Translations under genes and position numbers: made by a program
In this document: piece by piece, positions 3,747-22,367 of the stretch
Layout: each line of letters opens with the position of its first letter
Position numbering within the stretch: position 1 is the first letter of the stretch
DNA from: Onthophagus taurus
Taxonomy: Eukaryota; Arthropoda; Insecta; Coleoptera; Scarabaeidae
DNA length: 64,000 nucleotides
Reading direction: 5' to 3'
Assembly: GCF_036711975.1 (NCBI RefSeq)
Contig: NC_091966.1
Coordinates: 35,781,501-35,845,500 of the forward strand
Notes under the pieces: generated by a model
Told to the model about the DNA's origin: nothing
The model's database searches: none
The model's input: only the letters and a program-made list of their open reading frames with translations

Positions 3747-6700
3747 ATGTGCGATTCGACGCTTTTACTTATTAAGGATAAAATAATAAACACAGAGTAA
3801 GTTTAATCGGCAGTGAATAATCTATTTTTGTAAAATTATTAATATTTTTTTGATTTTTTTTATAGTGCTATCATAAAGCTGCTTTCGGACAAAAATACTC
3901 AAATAAATCGATTAAAACGACAATTAAAATTTCTTTATAAAAAATACCTGGCCCAAATAAAAGAGTTAGAAATTTGTAACCTTAAAGAGACGACTAACCA
4001 ATCTTACATAGATGAGAAAACTCTTCTTGAAAAATATACCGAATTAGAAGGGATTCATCAAGACTATGTTAACGTTTCAACAATAAAATATCAAAATATT
4101 TGTAAAGAATTAGAAGAATGCAAATCTTCAAAAAGTGTTACAACGATCAAAACAATTAAAAAGTGTAATAAATGTAAAGAAGAAGTTGAAAATAATCGAG
4201 TATTAAAGCGACAAATCACTAATTTGAAGCAAAACATAGAACAATTAACAAAAACGTTAGAATCAAAAAATGGAAGCAATTTAAATGACTTTAAATATTC
4301 TTCTGAATATAAACTGTTAAAACAACATCATACTACAGAAATCGAAAACCTTATGTCTGAGCATATGATGGAGTTAGATAAGGTGGAAACGAAATTTAAA
4401 AGTGAAATTAATATCTACCAAGATAGAATTGTTTCTTTGGAAGCACAAGATATGATTTATAAAGATAAAATAGATGAATTAAAATTAGAGTTGAATGAAA
4501 CAAAAATTTGTTTAGCAGAAAAAAATAAAGTAAAACCGGAGAATCATATTAATAATGAAATAAAAGGTGGTTTATATGAATTATTAAGTGAATGTGATTT
4601 GGAACTACCAAAAGTTGATGATCAATTAAAAACTAGATTAGATCAATCATCACAAACAGATGAAATATCATTTTATAATAATAATACAAATCCGATTGAA
4701 AATGTTGATGTTGCAAGTTTATTTGGTGATAATTTCTCTGATGTTTTAAGCGATCATCAAGAAGATTTCATGGAATTTAAGGATTTAGATGCAAAAACGG
4801 ATTGTAATGAATTGCTTAGGGTACCTTTAGAACCTTTAGAAGAAGAGAAGGAAGACTTAAATGATGAAAACCTTGATGTATGGAGATGTATCCAAGAAAT
4901 GAAAGAGATTCCAGAACCTTTAAGTTCATTAAGTTCATCTGAAAATGAAGACGAAACTACAACACCAAAGAAAAAAAATGTTTTCAATAAAAGAATAAAA
5001 TTAAAGCGATTGGCGCAAGAAAATCGCCGTAAATTTATTGCTAATATTAAAAAAGATGTCTTTAAATCTTTAGTGAAACATGTAGGAAAAATGTTAAAGA
5101 AGTCAACTGATAAAGAAAATAAATCAAATTCAACTAAATCAAAGAAAATGTCGAAACAATTTAAAAATAAACGTAAATTAGAAATGCTTAGATGGACAGC
5201 TTTACGTGAAATATCAAGCACTGATTCCGATGTATCTTGTACGTCAAAATCAAAAATAAAAATGAGAAAACTAGAAAGATACAAACATTTAAATGTAAAT
5301 AATAAAGAAGAGTACGCTAAATTTTGTGCTAAATTTAATACAATGACCGACTTTTATAACTCATTGAGTGGAAATGAAAACAAAATTAACGATAATGGTA
5401 ATATTGGTGAAGAATCTTGTTGGTCTGGACAAGATTCAGGTTTTGGAAAGAGCGATATTGAATGTGGCAAAACAGAAAAATGCATTAAAAGCGAAAATGA
5501 TAAGAAAATTAATATTCAATCAATTAAAATTCTTAAACAAGATAAATTACAATCTAAATTGGCTTCATCTAAAGAAATATTTCATGATGATTCAATTAAA
5601 AATCAAAAAACCAAAAAAAAATCAACTATCATAGGAGAAAATCAATTTTTACATAATTCTAAAGAAGAGTTACTATTTGGGGAATGTTCAAGTTCTGAAA
5701 ATGATAATGTAAGTTTTGATACAAAAGACTTAGTTGCAACATTAGAAGTATCTTCTGATTCGTTGGAAACTACATCTCTTAAAGAATTGTCTCAAAGCGA
5801 TTCATTTGAAAATAATAATGACAATTTTGAAGCTGTTCCAAAAACTGTTAATGAAATTGTTGCAACAAAAGCAATTGAAAATGATTTAGTACAGAAAAGT
5901 ACAGAAAATGATGATACAAATTCTTTTAAAGATAGTGATAATAAAAAGCAAACGATTAGTCGACGATATTCGGTAAGAATAAACAAATTAAAACATCAAC
6001 CAACCAAAAAATGGGGAGAAGAAATAATTGAGAATGAAAAAATTGATAAGAAATTATTAACAAATTCAATCTTAGAAATAATTTCGACTGAGGAATCTAT
6101 CAAACTTTGTACTCCTTCACAATTAAGTAACAAAAATGGTTGTTCAAGTTCTGAAAGTGATAATGAGATTTGCAATAAAACAGAAAATAATTGTAATTCA
6201 ACAAAAAAATCAACTATCATAGAAGAAATTCAATTTCCACAAAATTGTAAACATAATTCTAAAGAAGAATTATTATTTGGGGATTGTTCAAGTTCTGAAA
6301 ATGATAATGTAAGTGTTGATACAAAAGAATTAGCTGCAACGCGAAAAATATCTTCTGATTCGTTAGAAACTACATCTCTTAAAGAATTATCTCAAAGCGA
6401 TTTATTTGAAAATAACAATCTTAATAATAATATCGTTGAAACAAAAACAATTGAAAATGATTTAGTTAATGAAATAACAACCTTAGAAACAAGTATTTCG
6501 AAAAGTACAGGAAATGATACAAATTCTTTTAAAGATAGTGATAATAAAAAGCAAACGATTACTCGACGATATTCGGAAAGAATAAACAAATTAAAACATC
6601 AACCAAGCAAAAAATGTGGAGAAGAAATAATTGAGAATGAAAAAAGTGATAAGGAATTATTAACAAATTCAATCTTAGAATTAATTTCGACGGAAGAATC

Positions 6701-9700
6701 GATCAAATTAAGTTCTCCTTCACAATTAAGTAACAAAAATGGTTGTTCAAGTTCTGAAAGTGATAATGAGATTTGTAATAAAACAGAAAATACTTGTAAT
6801 TCAACAAAAAAATCAACTATCACAGAAGAAATTCAATATTTACAAAATTGTAAACATAATTCTAAAGAGGAATTGTTATTTGGGGAATGTTCAAGTTCTG
6901 ACAATGATAATATAAGTTTTGATACAAAAGAATTAGTTACAACGCGAAAAGTATCTTCTGATTCGTTAGAAACTACATCTTTTAAAGAATTATCTCAAAG
7001 CGATTTATTTGAAAATAACAATCTTAATAATAATATCGTTGAAACAAAAACAATTGAAAATGATTTAGTTAATGAAATAACAACCTTAGAAACAAGTATT
7101 TTGAAAAGTACAGGAAATGCTACAAATTCTTCTAAAGATAGTGATAATAAAAAGCAAACGATTAGTCGACGATATTCGGCAAGAATAAACAAATTAAAAC
7201 ATCAACCAAGCAAAAAATGTGGAGAAGAAATAATTGAGACTGAAAAAATTGATAAGAAATTATTAACAAATTCAATCTTAGAATTAATTTCGACGGAAGA
7301 ATCGATCAAATTAAGTACTCCTTCACAATTAAGTAACAAAAATGGTTGTTCAAGTTCTGAAAGTGATAATGAGATTTGCAATAAAACAGAAAATACTTGT
7401 AATTCAACAAAAAAATCAACTATCATAGAAGAAATTCAATATTTACAAAATTGTAAACATAATTCTAAAGAGGAATTGTTATTTGGGGAATGTTCAAGTT
7501 CTGAAAATGATAATGTAAGTTTTGATACAAAAGAATTAGTTACAACGCGAAAAGTATCTTCTGATTCGTTAGAAACTACATCTCTTAAAGAATTGTCTCA
7601 AACTGATTCATTTGAAAATAATAATCTTAATAATAATAACAACCTTGAAGCTGTTTCAAAAACTGTTAAAGAAATTGTTGAAACAAAAACAATTGAAAAT
7701 GATTTAGTTAATAAAATAACAACCTTAACAACAAGTATTTCGAAAAGTACAGAAAATGACGATACAAATTCTTTTAAAGATAGTGATAATAAAAAGCAAA
7801 CGATTACTCGACGATATTCGCCAAGAATAAACAAATTAAAACATCAAGCAATCAAAAGATGTAGAAAAGAAATAATTGAGAATAAAAAAATTCATAATAA
7901 ATTATTAACAAATTCAATCTTAGAATTAATTTCGACAGAAGAATCTATTGAACCGAGTATTTCTTCACAATTAAGTAATAAAAATGGTTGTTCAACTTCT
8001 GAAAGTGATACTAACGAGATTTCCCATAACACACAAAATAATTCTGATGAATTATCTAAATTGGAATTACCAAATTCCCAAATTGAATTGTCTTCAATAA
8101 AACTTCCATCTGTAATTAATGGAGGTGATGTTCCTGTTAGACCAATGAAAATACGAAAGGCTAACGAAAAAGTTACAAATTTAAAAAGAAAATTAGATGA
8201 ACCGGTTACAAAAAGAACAACTGAACCAGCAAATAAACTAAAAAAGTTAAAAGATAATTTTGTGAAAAGATTCAACAAAGATGATATGGTTAAAGAAGTA
8301 ATTAAAGTGGAAATGGAAAGGAAATTGGAAAAGGCGTGTTTTAAAAGACCAGTGAAACGTCCATTATGCACTCCTACGTCACCTCCACATTCTGTTGACT
8401 TTGAATTTACACCACCAAAGATTATTCCATTGAAAAAAGTAGGACAATTACATGAAGGTATTTATTTTAGAAAATTATACAGAATTTTTTTTTTTATATT
8501 ATGCATAGTACAATTGTATAACACCTAGTAAATACATATTGATCAGTTACTTCTTGTTGACAAGTAATGTTTTGCAGCTTTACGCAATGGTCCAGTCTGC
8601 TTTACACTTAATATACAGTGTGTCCCTAAGTAACGGATATAGGCGATAAAATCATAATAAACGGTTTATGGAAAAATCCCGGAAACGGGTCTAAAGATTT
8701 AAATTTTTTGGTGTAGATTTCAAATTTTTTCCGCCATTTTTAAACGAGTAATGACGCCATCGATATTTTTTTCAAATGGCAATCCCCCATTTTTATTACT
8801 ACTATTTTTTTCTGAATTTAGTACAGTCAATATTAATATTGGTTACATAAGAAAATTTTCGAGAAAAATTACTTTAAAGTTTAATTAGTTCAAATTTGTA
8901 TAATGATAAAAATAGCAGTAGCCATGAGTGTAACCAATTATTTTAAATAATTCCCTGAGTGTTAAAAACTGATTTAATAAAGCTTCTTGAAGTGTGGTGA
9001 CGCGCCATCTTGTTGGAATAGCTACCGTTGAAATTGAGTTGTGTCAACAATATCGGGATGGAAGGAATGACATCGCTTTGAAAAAATTTAAACATCTCTT
9101 TCCAGTTAAGGTTTCCTCAAATCTTTTGCGGATATTGGGTGTGCGGACTTCTTGGCTAATTTGGATTTTGGGTAGCGCAATACCGACAATTTTGTCATTT
9201 ACTTGTCCACTCAATGTAAATGTCCCTTCGTCGAAAAAATTATGTTTTTGACAAAGTCTTCGTCATCGTTGCAAAAACTACGGTTCATTGCTCGTGAATG
9301 AGGTTTACTTTATGGGAATGATATTTTGCGGGTTTTAAAATTTTATGAACCGTTGATTTACTCATGTTCAAATTAGATCCAATACTCCTTACAGTAACAT
9401 GAGAGTTTTCTTGCCAAGCCAATACCACGATTTGTTGAACTTCCTCTGAAACATTTAGTAGGCCAGACTTCGAGAGATGGCCATGCTGTTTAAATTTAGT
9501 CACAGCTAGGCTCACCCGACTTTGACTAATGAGTTGGCGATCAGGATATGTTGTATTAAAGAGTTCAACTACTTACTAAATCAGTTTTTGACACTTAGGA
9601 AATTGTTTAATATAATTGGTTACCATAGTTACTCATGGCTACTGCTATTTTCATCATGTCAACAAATCTGAAGCAGTTAAACTTTAAAGTAATTTTTCTC

Positions 9701-12700
9701 GAATATTTTTTTATGTAAGCAATATTAATATTGACTGTACAAGATTGAGAAAAAAATCTTCTTTCATATTCCTTAATAAAAATGGGGGATTGCCATTTGA
9801 AAAAAATACCGATAACGTCATAACTCGCTTGAAAATGGCGGAAGAAATTTTAAATCTACACCAAACAACTGCAAAAAATTTAAATCTTTAGACCCGTTTC
9901 AGGGATTTTTCCATAAACCGTTTATAATGATTTTATCCTATATCCGTTACTTTACGGACACATAAATATTGTCATATTTTTAGAGTTGTAGGGTCGTAAC
10001 ACAAAACGGGTACACTGCCATACGCGGAACACTCATTTCGGTTCTTGTTATAATTCCGCATTATTGCTTGCGTTTAAATCGACTAGGCACCAAATCACTA
10101 AATCGAGCGGCTTCATCCTCTGAAGGCGGCGCAGGACATCCTCGTTGTCGAGAAGCTGGATGGCCTCGCTGTTGGGATAATCTTGCATTCTCTTCTCATG
10201 TTTAAATGTAAATAATGCAATTTCTGATGACACTGATGCTACTTCCAAGTCGCGATGCAGGTCGCTGTTTCTTATGTACCAAGGTGCATTCACTATGCCC
10301 CTTAGTACTTTGTTTTGGAATCTTTGAATCAGACTTGCATTTGTCTTGCAGTTACAACCCCACAGTTGGATTCCATACGTCCATTTTGGTTCTGATATTT
10401 GCTTGTATATTAGCAACTTGTTTCTTAGTGACAACATAGATTTTCTGCTAATATAGGTGTCAAAATTTTATATCAAGTTCTTCACTTTTTTCTTGACGTG
10501 AGCTTTCTATTTGAGTCTGACATAAAGTTTATGTATGTCGATTTATTTGTATTTAATTTTATTAGCCATTGTTTGGTCCAGTTTTCTATTGAATTTAACG
10601 CCAATTGTAACTTATTTGCTGCAACTACTTCATTTTCTGCAACACCCAAGATCGCTGTGTCACCTGTGACTGTAGCTGTTAAAGTTTCTGGTATCTGAGG
10701 ATAGAGTAAGTAGTCAGCTTTTATTTCATGTAATGGTGAATAAGCGTTTTCGTATTTTACTCTAAAATATCGATCAGAAAGCTTGTGCAACATCCAAAAG
10801 CAGACTTCATTTTCTTATATTACTATTTCGATAGTATTCGTTATTCTATGCACTTGGTCTATTGTTGCATGTTTATTCCGAAACCCAAATTGATGTGTTG
10901 GTATTAGGGCGTTTTCTTCTATGACAGCTTTTAGTCTAACAATGAGACTAAAACCCACAAGAGACAAGTGAGACAAGACCCACTGTGGGGGGTTTACTAG
11001 ATTTTGGAGTTTTGGTATCATTATTATTTCAGCAACTTTTATATAGAAAATGAGGTTAAAAGTCTAAGCAATGGGTTTTTTATTCTTAAAAGGAATTTGT
11101 GGTTTTAAAAGGGTTGGGTACCGTATTTGAGTAAGTTGGTGTTGAGTTTACTTTCCGTATCTATCTCGTTATTTATCTTATTTCGATGATGCCTAGCCAA
11201 AACGGCATAAACGCCAAAATGGTCACTTTTTACTTAGCTACACCGAGCACCTCCTTCGCCTTCCGTTAGTAAGTCTCTTTCTATTTCCTCCTTCAGCTTC
11301 TCCCATACAATTGGTTCCTTAAATCTGTCTACGTTAAGTTTTTCCTGCTTGTGGGTCTTTTGTTGTACTTTGCTGTTAATTCTTCACCTAAATTGTATCT
11401 GAACTAGATGTGATCAGAGTCACAACAAGGCATCCTTTTCGCCCTCATATCTAGTATATTGTTATCATGTCCTGACTGTGTCTCCCATTGGGGTTGGTTA
11501 CCGCAGTTTTCCACAGAATTTCTCAGGCTTTCAGGGTTCCCCATATTGAAGCTTAGAGTGGGAATAGAGTAGGAGAGGCTAGGAGGTGCTATTAGCATAC
11601 AACATCTTATTTCGCGTTACTACCCCATTTGATCCTTGACTCATCCTTGGCTGATTCCCAAAGTCGAGTCTTGGTCTTTCATGCAATTCTATTGGCAAAG
11701 TCACCTTACTGCTCTACAATAAGCATAACAAACGAAAATTTAACCTAAAGATCAATTTATCAAAAATAAAGTCTGTTTATTAAGCACAACTCACACGTTT
11801 AGCAATGAAACCATAACTCTTACATATCTATCATTAATAAAGTACAGCCTAGAACTTATTACAAGAACCTCGAAACGAATTTTGCTTTGTGGATGTTTTT
11901 GCTTAATTATTATTATTAATGTGCATTTTTGGTGTTTGAACCTGACATATGAAATTAACTAGATGTGTATCTTTGACGATTATTTTTACATCATTTTCTA
12001 AATCTAAAAAATTTGTAAAATTTATTATTTTATTCAATGACTTAATTTTTTTATTTAATTTTTAGGAGTATGTAAAAAATTGCTTAAAAAATTAATCCAA
12101 TTTCCTGGTGAATCTGTGATACTACAAGAAATTTTCGATAAATTTTCTAGTCAGAAACAAAACTATATTATTAGGTAAATAAAAATTCCGTCGAATTAAA
12201 AAAATATATTTTAAATAATTTATGTTTTTAGGTTAATAATAGCAGAAGTACTAATTGATACAAGTAAATCAGACAATAAATACACCCCACCAGCACCATT
12301 ATTGACGCCAGTTCAAAGAACTTTACTAGGACTAACAATAAAACTACAAGAATCTTTTCCTGATATCTTAACAGAAATGTTATTTTCTTTAGAACGTAGT
12401 ATCCTAATTGAAACCAGTTTAGATGGTTTAATATCCACCACCAGATTTTACACGGGAATTTGTAAATTAAAAAAAGAATTGCATCGCATGAGAAGAATGA
12501 TTGGAGACGTTTTCTTCACTTTAAATAACTTGGCAATTCCATTTCTCTACACCGTATTAAGTACGTGGACGGAAATTTTACCACTAGAAGCTGAATCACA
12601 CGACAATATGCTCGTTAAAGTTTTAATACAAATCATTAACATGAAAAATTGTAAACCCGGTTATTGTTTAACCACTTTGAAGGGTTTATTACAAAATTAT

Positions 12701-13068
12701 TATGGGTATCCTAAAGAAAGATGGAAGAGTGAAGATGTGTTTAACGAAACTTTTACTAAGTTTAAAGGTAAATATTTAAAAATTACTTTATTATAATAAT
12801 AATTATTAATTTATTTGTTTTAGAAAATCCTTCAAAGTTCTTGGAATTTGCTTTATTAATATTATTTAAAAATCATCCTAATAAATGGGTTTATGAACAG
12901 ATGAGGATACATTTAAAGCCATTATTGAATGATTCAGCTGATAATCAGATAAAAAAAGCAATTGTTGTATTAATTAGTAATACTTTGCCTCAATTTGGCA
13001 GTGATAATTGTCAATATGTACAAGAAATTAAGACTTGGCTCAACTTGAATCTAAATAGTGTTGTATGA
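3747..13068 (+). CDS. ICE1: Little elongation complex subunit 1 (ICE1)-like, five coding exons
   Basis: Coding exons are 3747-3796, 3866-8457, 12066-12174, 12232-12767 and 12824-13068; phases join cleanly to 1843 codons plus stop. ICE1 scaffolds the little elongation complex (with ICE2, ELL/EAF and ZC3H8), which supports RNA polymerase II transcription of small nuclear RNAs in nuclear bodies. The N terminus has a KIINTD motif followed by a long coiled coil (about residues 18-125), as in vertebrate ICE1. The middle is acidic, Ser/Asn/Lys-rich and disordered, with a lysine-rich segment near residues 380-480 and about four 201-residue repeats (about 600-1395). The last three exons encode a helical domain of about 300 residues, the most conserved-looking part. 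Intron 2 (8458-12065) is swollen by a mariner-like element and a LINE relic. The start was chosen because the first small exon splices in frame and opens on the conserved motif. The name rests on motif recognition. Confidence 0.8.
5620..7995 (+). repeat. In-frame tandem repeats of about 603 bp inside ICE1
   Basis: Landmark peptides recur every 603 nt: SKEELLFG with CSSSENDN near 5657, 6259, 6862 and 7465; RRYS-RINKLKHQ near 5970, 6573, 7176 and 7821. The last interval is about 645 nt because a short Asn-rich segment is added. Each unit is 201 codons, so the frame is kept. Units 2 and 3 are almost identical in DNA, which points to recent duplication or gene conversion. The repeats carry acidic serine clusters (SSSESDNE) that look like casein kinase 2 sites. 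Confidence 0.95.
8616..9965 (-). mobile_element. Mariner-like DNA transposon with long terminal inverted repeats
   Basis: The ends are inverted copies of about 370 bp: the left arm begins CAGTGTGTCCCTAAGTAACG and the right arm is its diverged reverse complement. The core encodes on the minus strand (9515-9285) a helix-turn-helix with NMSKSTVHKILK and upstream DRQLISQS, the DUF4817/HTH type found in many insect mariner-like transposases. Further minus-strand pieces (about 9240-9000) resemble the start of the DDE domain, including FFDEGTFTLSGQVN, but frameshifts break it. It is inserted in intron 2 of ICE1. It is not autonomous. Confidence 0.8.
10040..11600 (-). mobile_element. Jockey-type LINE relic
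   Basis: Minus-strand fragments in several frames fit a reverse transcriptase: FGFRNKHATIDQVHRI (within 11021-10815), the palm-to-thumb region with ENWTKQWLIKLNTNKS (10793-10482) and a thumb region with RFQNKVLRGIVNAPWY (10437-10048). Pieces at about 11410-11220, including DSDHILVQI, resemble an endonuclease tail, possibly from a second LINE. Frameshifts and gaps make it non-functional. It lies antisense within ICE1 intron 2. Confidence 0.8.
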
Positions 13069-13171: not shown

Positions 13172-13319
13172 GATTTTCTTTGTACAAAGCTTTTTTATTC
13201 CTATTATAAAGATAAATATCTGTCACATGACGTTTAGAAAAAAGTTAGGTTATAAATTTTAACTAAGAAAAAAATATCATTTTATTAATTATTATTTAAC
13301 TAAAATAGTTTAAACAGCA

Positions 13320-13578
13320 ATGACCGCTCATGGAAGTGTTGAAATAACCGATCCTGTGGAAGAGATGTTAAAAAAGACCGGTTGTATAAACCTTCATTAC
13401 AAAGTACAGGTTAGGTTGTAAAACTTTCATAATCCTTTTAATTTATTAAAAATATAAAAATACTTAGGAATGTATTGCTGAAACTCAAGACTGGCGAAAA
13501 TGTCAAGTTCAAGTAGCAGAGTTTAAAAAGTGTATGGTAAATTATACCCAAAAACAACAATCCCAAGAATCAAGTTAA
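13320..13578 (+). CDS. COA4: Cytochrome c oxidase assembly factor 4 (COA4), twin CX9C protein
   Basis: Exons 13320-13409 and 13468-13578 join in phase to 66 residues. The protein has the twin CX9C pattern of the mitochondrial intermembrane space CHCH family: C22-x9-C32 and C42-x9-C52, with the family-typical QDWRKCQ between the pairs. COA4 family members enter the intermembrane space by MIA40-dependent oxidation and are needed for cytochrome c oxidase biogenesis. The protein is slightly shorter than the human one of about 87 residues because it lacks the N- and C-terminal extensions. Only 9 nt separate its stop from the PTRH2 start, with no polyadenylation signal between, so the two probably share a transcript. 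Confidence 0.88.
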
Positions 13579-13587
13579 TAATCCACA

Positions 13588-14007
13588 ATGAAATCTTTCC
13601 TAAACAAACTCTCTTTATTCAAAAAACAACTCAATAAATATAGTGCAAGTGACACAAAAATGGTAATTTTAGTACGTACTGATATCCAAATGGGAAAAGG
13701 TAAAATCGCTAGTCAATGTGCCCATGCTGCAGTGTGCTTATATAAATCAGCAAGTGAATCAGGTCCACAAAACGTTGAATCTTGGATATTCTCAGGACAA
13801 CCAAAAATCATTTTAAAAGTAAACGAAAATAGTGAAGACAGGATTCTAGAGGTTTATAAAAAAGCTAAAAAACGCGGTTTAAATGCTTGTTTAATTTATG
13901 ATGGTGGTCGAACTCAAGTTAAAGGGGGGACTTTGACTTGTTTAGGAATAGGGCCAAGTTGTACTAAAGAAATTGATGACTTAACTAATTGTTTTAAGTT
14001 GTTATAA
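13588..14007 (+). CDS. PTRH2: Peptidyl-tRNA hydrolase 2 (PTRH2/Pth2)
   Basis: A single-exon ORF of 139 residues. The Pth2 fold starts at MVILVRTD (residue 25) and has the signature GKGKIASQCAHAA (lysine near residue 39) and DGGRTQV near residue 110, which supply the Lys, Asp and Thr of the Pth2 active site. Pth2 cleaves peptidyl-tRNA that has dropped off ribosomes; the animal protein (Bit1) is mitochondrial and linked to anoikis. The 24 residues before the core are basic and Leu/Phe-rich, compatible with mitochondrial targeting, but lack the clear membrane segment of the human protein. The ATG at 13588 (context CCACAATGA) is the first after the COA4 stop. Expression presumably needs reinitiation, leaky scanning, or a promoter inside COA4. 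Confidence 0.93.
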   Translation: MKSFLNKLSLFKKQLNKYSASDTKMVILVRTDIQMGKGKIASQCAHAAVCLYKSASESGPQNVESWIFSGQPKIILKVNENSEDRILEVYKKAKKRGLNACLIYDGGRTQVKGGTLTCLGIGPSCTKEIDDLTNCFKLL

Positions 14008-14034
14008 ATGTTAGAATTGTTTCAAAAATGAATT

Positions 14035-14044
14035 AATAAATAAA
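14035..14044 (+). terminator. Polyadenylation signals downstream of PTRH2
   Basis: Two overlapping AATAAA hexamers lie about 28 nt after the PTRH2 stop. They are the first after COA4, which fits a shared COA4-PTRH2 transcript. Confidence 0.55.
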
Positions 14045-18200: not shown

Positions 18201-21200
18201 GTAATAATATAACTGTAATGTTGAATTGGTAAGACGATTCGAATTGTGTGTCCATGAAAATGGAAGTAATTTTCAGTTATTATAAGTTTTTTTTGTTGTT
18301 CCAATTATTATTATCGTGAAAAATTTCACAATTCTGTTTTTTATTTTGTTAAATAGTTTTGTTATTTATGTTAAAAATAATGTTGAGACCACTTTATTGG
18401 TTTATATGAATAATTTTATTTCAATTCTATTCTTCTTTAATGTTAAATATCTCCGTAGCTACTAACTATTGAAAGCAATGTTAATAAGGAAAGTTGCACA
18501 GTTTTACATGCTCTATCACGTGCAGCTAATAAAATGTTTGTGATGAAGGGAAAGTTTCTTTTGACTGCAGCGCCATCTTTATTTTTGTAAAATGAATAAT
18601 AATAATACTTAAGAACATTTCAGAGATACTTGTCCTGGAAGTTTTAAATGAAACACCTGTATATGGCTAATATTCTAAGTGGCGATGATAAGAAATTTGG
18701 TTTAATAATAATATATAATAACAAAAAGAAAATTGTTAAAAATGACTTCGCTTCGATATGTGTCAAAACTGGTCTTACCATCGTTTTATACAGGGTGTGT
18801 CAAATGTCTGGAATATAGCCAATAACTTCGCCATTTGTGGTTTTGATGAAAAATGTTTCAAATAAAAGTTTCTTTATTAATCGTGACGCATTTTTTGGCG
18901 ATATTTGCTTGTTTGTATTGGTTTTTGTTTCGTTGCTATGGCAACCAACATTGTTATTTTAAATGGGAAGCATATGCTTTTCTTGCATACTTTGATAGAG
19001 GATAAATCCCTCGATGCGATCAAAGTATCAAATGATAGGGTTGTATAAGAAAAAAAGCGAGAAAAAATGCGTTTTCTGAAAATATTAAATCAGCAAATTA
19101 CAATCAAAGTAGGCGCCGAAATAACGCCGTTAAATGTCAAAAAAATGACAGTTTCAACAATTATGAAAAATTAATGATGTATGGGCATGGTGACACACAT
19201 TTAATGGAATTTCGTCATTGGTAGCTGTCTTTGGCTGTCCACTTTTTGGAAGGTTTTTGACACTTCCTTTGCTAAAGAATTTTTTTAATATTTTGGGATA
19301 CTGTGAATTCTGTAATGTGTGTATCCTAGTAAATATTATTGAAGAGTCATCATTAATATTTGGATTCTTTGTCGTTCGCTTAATAGGGCCGTTAAGGTCA
19401 ATCGATTAGAAAGACCGTGTTTCAAAAAATCGATAATCTAAATTAAATTAGACGGATTAGTAATGTTTTTATGTTCGAAAATTGTTTAATTTTTGCAATA
19501 ATTAATGTAAAAGTTTAAAATTCCCCACCTCCGACTCCAGATGACGTTTTATGTAAGAAGAAAGAAATCACAGACGTTCTATGTTTCGTACTTAGTTACT
19601 GTTTTCTTCTAGCGCATAAGATTCGTAGCATTGTCTCTCTTCAGGAATTTTATTGATTTTTATACGCTCAAATCTGAGTGTCGTACTTTGGAGTTCGCGC
19701 CTGTACTTTCAAACTTTATTATTTTTTCTTTGAAAACCTAAGCCTCAGAATCAAAAATTAAAAAATATAGGTTCAATCAATTTTAAAAAACTTTCGAATA
19801 AGCCAATAAAAAAGACTTAACAGCCCTATTGCGCCATATTTGTCAAATTTTTGACATTTAAAGCTGTCAACGGCGTTATTTCGGCGCCTACTTTAATTGA
19901 CTTTAATTGTAGTTCGCTGATTTAATATTTTGAGAGAACGCATTTTTTCTCGACTTTTTCCTTATACAACCATGTGATTTGATATGTTCATCGCGTAGAG
20001 GAATTTATCCTCTATCAAAATATGCAAAAAAAACATATACATTCCATTTAAAATAACAATGTTGGTTGCCATAGCAACGAAACAAAAAACAATGTAAACA
20101 AGCAAATATCACCAAAAAATGCGCCACAATTAATAAAGAATTTTTTATTTTAAACATTTTTCTTTAAAACCACAAATAGCGAAGTTATTGGCTATATTCC
20201 AGACATTTGATACACCCTGTATAGTAAAAGTTTCAATATTCTGTCTTATTACTGTCTTGTATGCAGTGTTGTATGCTAGCATCATAAAATACCCAAGTAT
20301 CTAATGTTTTCCACAGTTTCAAACTTGTACTCAGCAACAGTTAAGTTTTTAAAAAAGTAACACTTATTCACAAGTTATATAATAAAAGTTTGATCGAAAA
20401 TTTTCTTAATTGACCTTTCAATTCAAGGAAAATGAGTGAAAAAATATATATATTTACCTAATAATAATTTAAACCTCCACAATGCTGATACATGAAGCGC
20501 TATAACAGCTAAAATTGGTAAATAAATAAACCAAACTAAACTGGACGCTCCAAAATGTAGCAAAAAATTTAATTTTTGTGTGTTATGTTCGTATAACATC
20601 GTCGTCCTTAATTCGTATAAAAACCAGATCATAATCAAGGTTCTAAAAACGATTATTAACCAACCAGGCCATGTTTGATATTCATCTATATCTTCAATTA
20701 TATCCACTTCCGTCTAAGAAACAAAATATTTATGTTAAAAAGGTTTAAATTTTATTTTATTTAATACTTACTAAATTCCAAACATATAATAAAATATGTA
20801 CAACTCCATAGCATAACCAAATAGCAAATACTAACGGTTTCCAGGTTAATTCCAACCGGGTAACAGCCCATCCTTTAGCTAATAAAAGCAGAAGTAACAT
20901 AAAAGAAGTCTACAAAAAAGCGATATATGAATCTTGATCTTAGCGAAAAATTTTTTTTATTTACCCTTGATAAAATATCAAATATATCCCCAGCAAGGGA
21001 TAACCCCGGATATCCAATTCCATCCAAAGAAAATTTCAAATTATGTATTAAAATTAAACATAGAGCCAAAAAATCCAAAATTAAACTAGCTGTAAATAGT
21101 TTTGTTACAGGGTGTTTTTGTATTCGAACGGCGTGTAATTGTAATGGGACTAGCACCATGTAACATAACCAAAAAAGGAGGTACATTTCCAACGTGTTTT

Positions 21201-22367
21201 GTCGATCGAAAGAAAATTGATAAGTAAAGGTGCTTAATGAAACGTTTGGACTTCCATTTACCAACCATATATCATATTCTATTTCATAATGTTGATTTGG
21301 TTCATAGTAATGCCAATCGCATGTCGTGCTATTATGGTAACATGCTACCATTGATAAATACCAAAATCTAAAATTAATTATAATAATAAGATTAGCAAAT
21401 CATAAAATTTTAAATAAATTAAAATTATTTTTTTAAGTTGGTCTTCTGAAATTTGACAATCATTCAAATGAAACAATCAAAAATTGAGGTTATGGTAAAC
21501 AATTTCATTTATGAAAATTAGATGCAATTTATTAATAATTAATTAAAAATATGTAAACAAACTGAAATCTGACCGAAAATAAAAGCATGGTTCTTTAGAA
21601 GATTTATGTTAGTGAATTCTAAGGTAACTGTAAATCTAAAATTTTATTTAATTTTTTTATTTAGAATTAACCGTATCGAAACCACTTTCTATAATTAATA
21701 TTTGTAAACATAACAAGTACTTGGGTTAATAAGATAACGATACAATTCTTATCTAAATATTTTTTAGACTATTTAAAATATTTTGTGTATTCATTAGAAA
21801 ACAGTTCCTTTTTGCAACAAAATTCCAACTGACATTGCAACTTTTACAAAATACTTTTTTATTACATAATACAACAAAAAAAACTTACGATGGTTGTTGT
21901 AAATCTTGAATAACATAAGTAAATTGATGTCCCTTGATAACATTTTCAGGTGAATCCTCATCAACACAAAGTTTATTTTTCGGACACGGTATCTTTCGTA
22001 AATAATCATTACCGCCAGCACTACAATCAGGGTCGAAAGCCTTCACTTTGAGCTGTGGAAACATATGTTTGCATGCTTCCCGTTTATCAAATATAACCCT
22101 ATTTTGGTAGTAATCGAGGAAATATGATCGGTCAAGAACCGCGAACGTTATGGGTACTGGGAACGTTTGTTTAGAGGTGATATTACCAAAAATGTAACCG
22201 TGCGTGGCCTCCTTTTGGTGCCTATCCGTCTTTTGAAAACCGAACTTTATAAGAAACTTAAAGAAATCTTTATTGGTGAATTTGCCCCGTAAATGTGTAC
22301 ACTCGACATCGTCGAAACATACGGCGATTAATAAAAAAATCGCGAGCACCGAACGTGTCCTAAACAT
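15216..22367 (-). CDS. TMEM145: TMEM145/GPR180-family seven-transmembrane protein, five coding exons
   Basis: Coding exons on the minus strand are 22367-21889, 21367-20965, 20909-20772, 20713-20458 and 15454-15216; the phases join to 504 residues, close to human TMEM145. The protein starts with a hydrophobic signal peptide (about residues 1-23), then a Cys-containing extracellular domain, then about seven hydrophobic segments (about residues 195-450) typical of the intimal-thickness-related receptor family. FWYLSMVACY at the exon 1/2 junction and HLLWPTRS in the last exon are family hallmarks. The cytoplasmic tail is short and Ser-rich. The ligand or role of this family in insects is not established. 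Intron 4 (20457-15455, 5 kb) holds several mobile elements. TMEM145 fits better than GPR180 by length and tail, but I could not test this. Confidence 0.88.
15900..16895 (+). mobile_element. Jockey/R1-type LINE relic in TMEM145 intron 4
   Basis: Plus-strand fragments resemble the region before and within reverse transcriptase: FQYYKSLHNYVTDAIRREKN (16360-16420) and a piece at 16660-16895 that matches, with gaps, the 3' end of the LINE at 22986-24370 (shared DNA such as GGTAAGGATAATAGAAGCC and the ATTCCTGATTT end). Most of the reverse transcriptase is deleted. Confidence 0.65.
16910..17255. mobile_element. Short MITE with CAGGGTGG ends and TA duplication
   Basis: The ends are CAGGGTGGTTG and its inverted form CCACCCTG, flanked by TA on both sides. 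The internal sequence near the left end recurs at 30470-30570, so this is a dispersed family. There is no coding capacity. The TA target fits a Tc1/mariner-mobilised MITE. Confidence 0.65.
17790..18659 (+). mobile_element. Mariner-like transposase relic
   Basis: Around 18050-18190 the frame gives RPTWFQQDGAAPHDTQ and LNRKFPERWIG, the second catalytic Asp region of DUF4817-associated mariner-like DDE transposases; TFCGATN just upstream fits the same domain. The start of the protein is missing or frameshifted. The right end is probably AAACACCTG at 18659, followed by TA; a similar terminus lies at 29770. The left end was not found. Confidence 0.7.
18568..18578 (-). promoter_or_regulatory. CTCF-like AGATGGCGCTG site (reverse strand)
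   Basis: CAGCGCCATCT, the exact reverse complement of the 11-mer seen at 3357, 33971 and 34150. It lies within a mobile-element relic, so it may be incidental. Confidence 0.2.
18791..20219. mobile_element. Foldback MITE, 1.43 kb, with arms of about 370 bp
   Basis: The left arm (CAGGGTGTGTCAAATGTCTG...) and right arm (...CAGACATTTGATACACCCTG) are diverged inverted copies that can be followed for about 370 bp, including the shared CGAAATAACGCCGTT block. TA flanks both ends. The middle (about 19170-19800) encodes nothing recognisable. This is a non-autonomous mariner-type element inside TMEM145 intron 4. Confidence 0.85.

Follow-up and report, generated by a model that had tools for sequence, protein, structure and literature searches.

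A probable dicistronic mRNA for a COA4-like ORF and a PTH2-domain ORF in Onthophagus taurus

Dicistronic genes of flies and their counterparts in this genome

FlyBase release 6.04 contains 159 dicistronic gene pairs, and 2.5% of fly protein-coding genes have a polycistronic transcript, according to excerpts of PMC4528330; the remark in the initial annotation that dicistronic mRNAs are uncommon in insects thus understated their frequency. The same excerpts describe 45 of the 159 pairs as apparently exclusively dicistronic and give gaps of -34 to 319 nt for exclusively polycistronic loci. The 64,000-nt stretch of O. taurus DNA analyzed here (the window) contains a COA4-like ORF and a PTH2-domain ORF on the same strand, and their gap of 9 nt falls inside this range.

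Two known fly dicistrons were used as controls in the same genome, as positive controls only. MOCS2A/MOCS2B is a known conserved dicistron (PMC4528330 and PMC2276209, excerpts) and resembles COA4-PTH2 in its tight gap, since MOCS2A (84 codons) stops 2 nt before MOCS2B in O. taurus. However, MOCS2A and MOCS2B are two subunits of one enzyme, and an intron interrupts MOCS2B here, which gave two separate matches. The sloth1/sloth2 pair (SMIM4/BRAWNIN; CG32736/CG42308) resembles COA4-PTH2 in its small mitochondrial upstream ORF and tiny gap. In flies this gap is 5 nt, and PMC9681215 (excerpts) reports a bicistronic transcript of full length together with reporter assays that support a leaky-scanning mechanism. 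In O. taurus, an intron of 57 nt divides the 71 codons of sloth1 into two exons, the 51 codons of sloth2 are uninterrupted, and the two ORFs are 12 nt apart; a short intron in the first ORF and an uninterrupted second ORF in the same frame are also found in COA4-PTH2. However, the two sloth ORFs have been described as paralogous, unlike the unrelated COA4 and PTH2, sloth1 has no out-of-frame ATG in this genome whereas COA4 has three, and the sloth pair was tested at the bench whereas COA4-PTH2 is known here from sequence. The fly sloth1/sloth2 starts are weak and then strong, the same direction as from COA4 (G at -3) to PTH2 (A at -3). In O. taurus G is found at -3 of sloth1 and sloth2 alike, so this asymmetry is not a general mark of dicistrons in this species. 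It should be noted that in locus L009 (contig C1) an upstream ORF of two codons, ATG CAA TGA at 1484-1492, runs over the sloth1 start (ATG 1489) and may tune the sloth1/sloth2 ratio.

In D. melanogaster, Hayden and Bosco listed 44 upstream ORFs that are conserved, among which ORFs for mitochondrial import are in excess (PMC2276209, excerpts). Upstream ORFs with CX9C motifs are found in CG9865 (uORF1 and uORF3), CG30290, and CG9288, and these transcripts resemble COA4-PTH2 in that a small CX9C ORF precedes the ORF of an enzyme. The excerpts of PMC2276209 mention no peptidyl-tRNA hydrolase in the 44 rows of Table 4, and the word "hydrolase" has 0 occurrences; the closest in function is CG30100, which encodes a translation release factor and has an upstream ORF of 70 aa. 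The COA4-PTH2 pair was not found among the literature matches listed, and it may be in print, for example in supplements. Flies are already known to have dicistronic arrangements of this kind, to which COA4-PTH2 would be an added case. A real COA4-PTH2 mRNA would add a COX assembly factor and a peptidyl-tRNA hydrolase to the recurrent and unexplained insect habit of CX9C upstream ORFs ahead of other enzymes, and would provide a compact case for telling leaky scanning from reinitiation.

Layout and products of the two ORFs

The COA4-like ORF lies on the forward strand and comprises 66 codons over two exons. Exon 1 (13320..13409, 30 codons, ATG at 13320), which was matched as a separate exon in the genome search, is followed by a predicted intron of 58 nt (13410..13467, GTTAGG...TTAG, GT..AG, phase 0) without an ATG. 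Exon 2 (13468..13578) completes the twin CX9C and ends with the TAA at 13576-13578. The intercistronic 9 nt (TAATCCACA, 13579..13587, + strand) start with a second in-frame TAA and supply the A at -3 of the PTH2 start. From the first stop onward the sequence reads TAA TAA TCC ACA ATG, with two tandem stops and both ORFs in one frame. The PTH2-domain ORF (13588..14007, + strand) has 139 uninterrupted codons, encodes a TM-less protein, and stops at the TAA at 14005-14007. Its first 23 codons (13588..13656) form an N-terminal extension ahead of the PTH2 domain, and 78 nt (13579-13656) separate the COA4 stop from the conserved domain. The initial annotation had given the COA4 stop, the ATG at 13588, the gap, the intron length, and the codon count of the first ORF correctly.

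The COA4-like product has cysteines at positions 22, 32, 42, and 52, which constitute the twin CX9C. Its match with Pfam CHCH was sub-threshold (E 0.00045, 20.7 bits, cut-off 27.2), and no COA4 model or structure was among its matches in family-profile and structure searches. A genome search with the protein (E up to 10) recovered its own two exons and no other match. The ORF is presumably COA4 (CHCHD8), given its resemblance around the motifs.

The PTH2 ORF showed a complete domain of this peptidyl-tRNA hydrolase type, whose enzymes release stuck tRNAs, matching Pfam PF01981 with E 2.4e-36 over profile positions 2-115 of 115 and NCBIfam arch_pth2 with E 5.2e-36, with PDB matches to 1q7s and 1xty. 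The D-[AG]-G-x-TQ stretch is present within LIYDGGRTQV, and its Asp, D105, would correspond to the catalytic Asp of the yeast enzyme (D174). Four PTH2-domain matches were found in this genome, on contigs C16, C1, C10, and C7. The C10 match is a diverged copy, and the C7 match is presumably PTRHD1. The C16 gene has a hydrophobic, anchor-like N-terminus and two predicted introns, and it is identical to human Bit1 at 58/114 aligned positions, versus 50/114 for the window gene. The window gene is 53% identical to Sulfolobus Pth2 (60/114) and 34% identical to the C16 copy (47/137). In a tree of nine sequences and 115 columns, from which the C7 row was left out, the C16 gene and human Bit1 formed a group (81/77, not a starred fork), and the window gene had no resolved placement. 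Because of these groupings, the window gene is most likely a TM-less PTH2 paralogue and not the PTRH2/Bit1 orthologue; the identities favor the C16 gene as that orthologue. The name PTRH2, given to the window gene by the initial annotation, therefore most likely denotes the wrong orthologue and should not be used for it without further proof.

A horizontal origin of the window gene was considered, as its best identity among the compared proteins is to Sulfolobus Pth2, and set aside, as human Bit1 is also 50% identical to that enzyme and the tree gives the window gene no firm position. A prokaryote scan with the window PTH2, covering close relatives only, gave one locus at 39%, and a viral scan gave no match. 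Among fly genes, CG17327 and CG1307 are named aminoacyl-tRNA hydrolases and CG42496 clusters with respiratory-complex assembly in the source excerpts. CG33057 had been guessed to be a PTH2 gene, which was wrong, as it is a TPT1 orthologue. CG42496 may be fly COA4, perhaps with a PTH2 gene adjoining.

The window protein shares the PTH2 domain with PTRH2/Bit1 and yeast Pth2 but has no N-terminal membrane anchor. The hydrolase role of yeast Pth2 needs the active site and not the anchor, whereas its import-gate role needs the anchor (PMC9892010, excerpts). By analogy, a TM-less PTH2 would suit the hydrolase role. In place of the outer-membrane anchor, the extension of the window protein is lysine-rich, with one acidic residue and five lysines; a sixth lysine falls within its first 24 residues. 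The first 18-mer is moderately amphipathic, with a moment of 0.463, which 484/10,000 shuffles of these 24 residues also reached, so that the signal is weak. The initial annotation held that both products act in or on mitochondria; this applies to COA4 in general, and for the window PTH2 the sequence hints at it faintly.

The bacterial-type Pth profiles PF01195 and TIGR00447 had 0 matches at E up to 10 in an exon-wise six-frame search of this genome, in which small exons can escape, and the same type of search gave three matches to RF-1 (PF00472). Because genes were searched exon by exon, the Pth negative is weak. Together with the lysine-rich amphipathic N-terminus, it permits but does not show a matrix PTH2 in place of PTRH1. 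It is doubtful that this insect lacks the bacterial-type mitochondrial Pth/PTRH1 and has replaced it with a TM-less PTH2 that carries a matrix presequence and is tied to COX assembly via the COA4 mRNA.

Evidence for one mRNA and competing explanations

The two ORFs are probably expressed from a single dicistronic mRNA with its promoter upstream of COA4, and PTH2 would be translated via leaky scanning and/or reinitiation. As the initial annotation pointed out, the 9 nt between the genes leave no space for a promoter. Neither they nor the 78 nt before the conserved domain can hold UTRs and a promoter without overlapping coding sequence. A pattern scan found no TATA-Inr pair in 13410-13587 and one in 13185-13319. 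The latter is a candidate core promoter of the pair (13251..13282, + strand), consisting of a TATAAA at 13251 and, at 13277, an initiator-like TCATTT whose A+1 is at 13279. It was picked post hoc, and such a pair arose in 20/2000 dinucleotide shuffles of 13185-13319. No other ATG lies between 13279 and the COA4 ATG. The next ORF upstream stops at 13068, and 251 nt with two AATAAA (13162 and 13166) precede COA4. An 11-codon upstream ORF (13227-13262) would lie ahead of COA4 if transcription begins before 13227. A promoter and terminator scan with bacterial models, which is not meaningful for an insect, gave three promoter-like sites (fewer than shuffles) and one terminator-like site. The genome had 134 matches to 7tm_6, the family of insect odorant receptors, which marks it as that of an insect, and spliced-leader operons are thus not expected.

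Under random placement, a gap of 9 nt or less has a probability of ~0.0004-0.0006 per neighbor pair, and ~2-6 same-strand pairs this close are expected by chance in a genome of 12,000-20,000 genes. Because a few such pairs are expected genome-wide, the 9-nt spacing by itself is suggestive and not proof. The junction offers no room, the scan gave a TATA-Inr pair upstream of COA4 and none in 13410-13587, and the two fly dicistrons are tightly spaced in this genome, which makes a shared transcript the best reading. The initial annotation was thus right to propose a dicistronic transcript, but it had the first poly(A) signals only after the second gene, which is not the case. An AATAAA lies inside the PTH2 ORF (13633..13638, + strand), 55 nt past the COA4 stop, and permits a COA4-only mRNA as a possible early poly(A) signal. 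It is near chance expectation, as shuffles of 13579-14007 average 1.2 such motifs, and it may be inert. The next AATAAA are at 14035 and 14039, in the overlapping AATAAATAAA after the PTH2 stop (14035..14044, + strand), which likely provides the poly(A) signals of the dicistronic mRNA.

Two overlapping monocistronic mRNAs, with a PTH2 promoter in COA4 exon 2 or the intron and with COA4 ending at the AATAAA at 13633, are a rather unlikely alternative to which this motif and lone TATA-like motifs at 13385 and 13453 would lend themselves. A transcript begun at 13560 would have 13588 as its first ATG, and fly dicistronic loci often have monocistronic forms as well, of both genes in 45/159 and of one gene in 69/159 (PMC4528330, excerpts). 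However, the PTH2 promoter and 5' UTR would sit in COA4 coding sequence or the intron, the PTH2 region has as many AATAAA as chance predicts, and 13410-13587 contains no TATA-Inr pair. TATA and Inr are not required by all promoters. It is less probable still that PTH2 is made from a splice form of one mRNA in which COA4 is broken or removed, by intron retention or an alternative acceptor. With the 58-nt intron retained, COA4 would indeed break off at 33 codons and the mRNA would gain no ATG, but the COA4 ATG would still come first on that mRNA, and no second acceptor near 13588 was evident by eye.

Since the PTH2 ORF is intronless in the window versus two predicted introns in the C16 paralogue, it might be an old retrocopy that landed by chance behind COA4 and is no functional partner of it. 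This origin is highly improbable given the greater identity to the Sulfolobus enzyme (53%) than to the C16 copy (34%), the complete domain, and a downstream region in which no poly(A) tract was seen by eye, all of which point to an old and constrained ORF. Stop-codon readthrough would yield a COA4-PTH2 fusion, as the frame is kept across the 9-nt gap. However, PTH2 begins with an ATG of its own in a context with A at -3, and the two consecutive in-frame UAA codons make a fusion scarcely credible.

For the single dicistronic mRNA, we infer the splice, the transcript, its promoter, and both routes of translation from the sequence. One promoter just 5' of COA4 would produce a spliced mRNA of ~0.7 kb carrying COA4 and then PTH2 and ending near AATAAATAAA. 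Intron retention, which would truncate COA4, or the internal AATAAA could change the ratio of the two products.

Translation of the second ORF and surroundings of the pair

On the shared mRNA, COA4 would be translated first, and ribosomes would arrive at the PTH2 start both through leakage past the COA4 ATG and through reinitiation once they have terminated. The COA4 ATG stands in the context ACAGCA-ATG-A (G at -3), the PTH2 ATG in TCCACA-ATG-A (A at -3). Three out-of-frame ATGs in the COA4 ORF open ORFs of 5, 3, and 8 codons, and scanning could resume after ORFs this short (3-8 codons). The out-of-frame ATGs are not clearly depleted in COA4, with three versus a mean of 3.6 and with three or fewer in 2156/5000 synonymous shuffles. 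Because of this, and because the asymmetry of the starts is no general mark here, leakage alone is not favored and some reinitiation is likely. According to PMC2276209, reinitiation in plant protoplasts falls sharply once the first ORF exceeds 34 codons; excerpts of the same paper give the mean length of conserved fly upstream ORFs as 70 aa (abstract) or 76 aa (section 6). The 66 codons of COA4, which the initial annotation regarded as short and hence favorable to reinitiation, are long by the published rules, though near the fly mean.

A folded IRES at the junction was considered and rejected, as the RNA there is no more structured than its shuffles (z +1.19; 179/200 fold at least as well). 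Scanning fits an unstructured junction better than a folded IRES does.

Several other elements were observed in the window. Two ORF pieces at 10048-10814 (- strand) resembled reverse transcriptase fragments by eye and had no Pfam match at E 0.01. Between an ORF at 3843-8528 and ORFs at 12215-13068 lies a nested palindromic element of ~1.3 kb (8645-9937) with imperfect inverted-repeat arms of 75, 95, 96, 51, and 27 nt (88-96% complementary), which by eye appears to be a terminal-inverted-repeat transposon. Downstream of the pair and on the opposite strand, an ORF at 20878-21399 (- strand) encodes a GPR180/TMEM145 transmembrane domain (E 1.1e-9).
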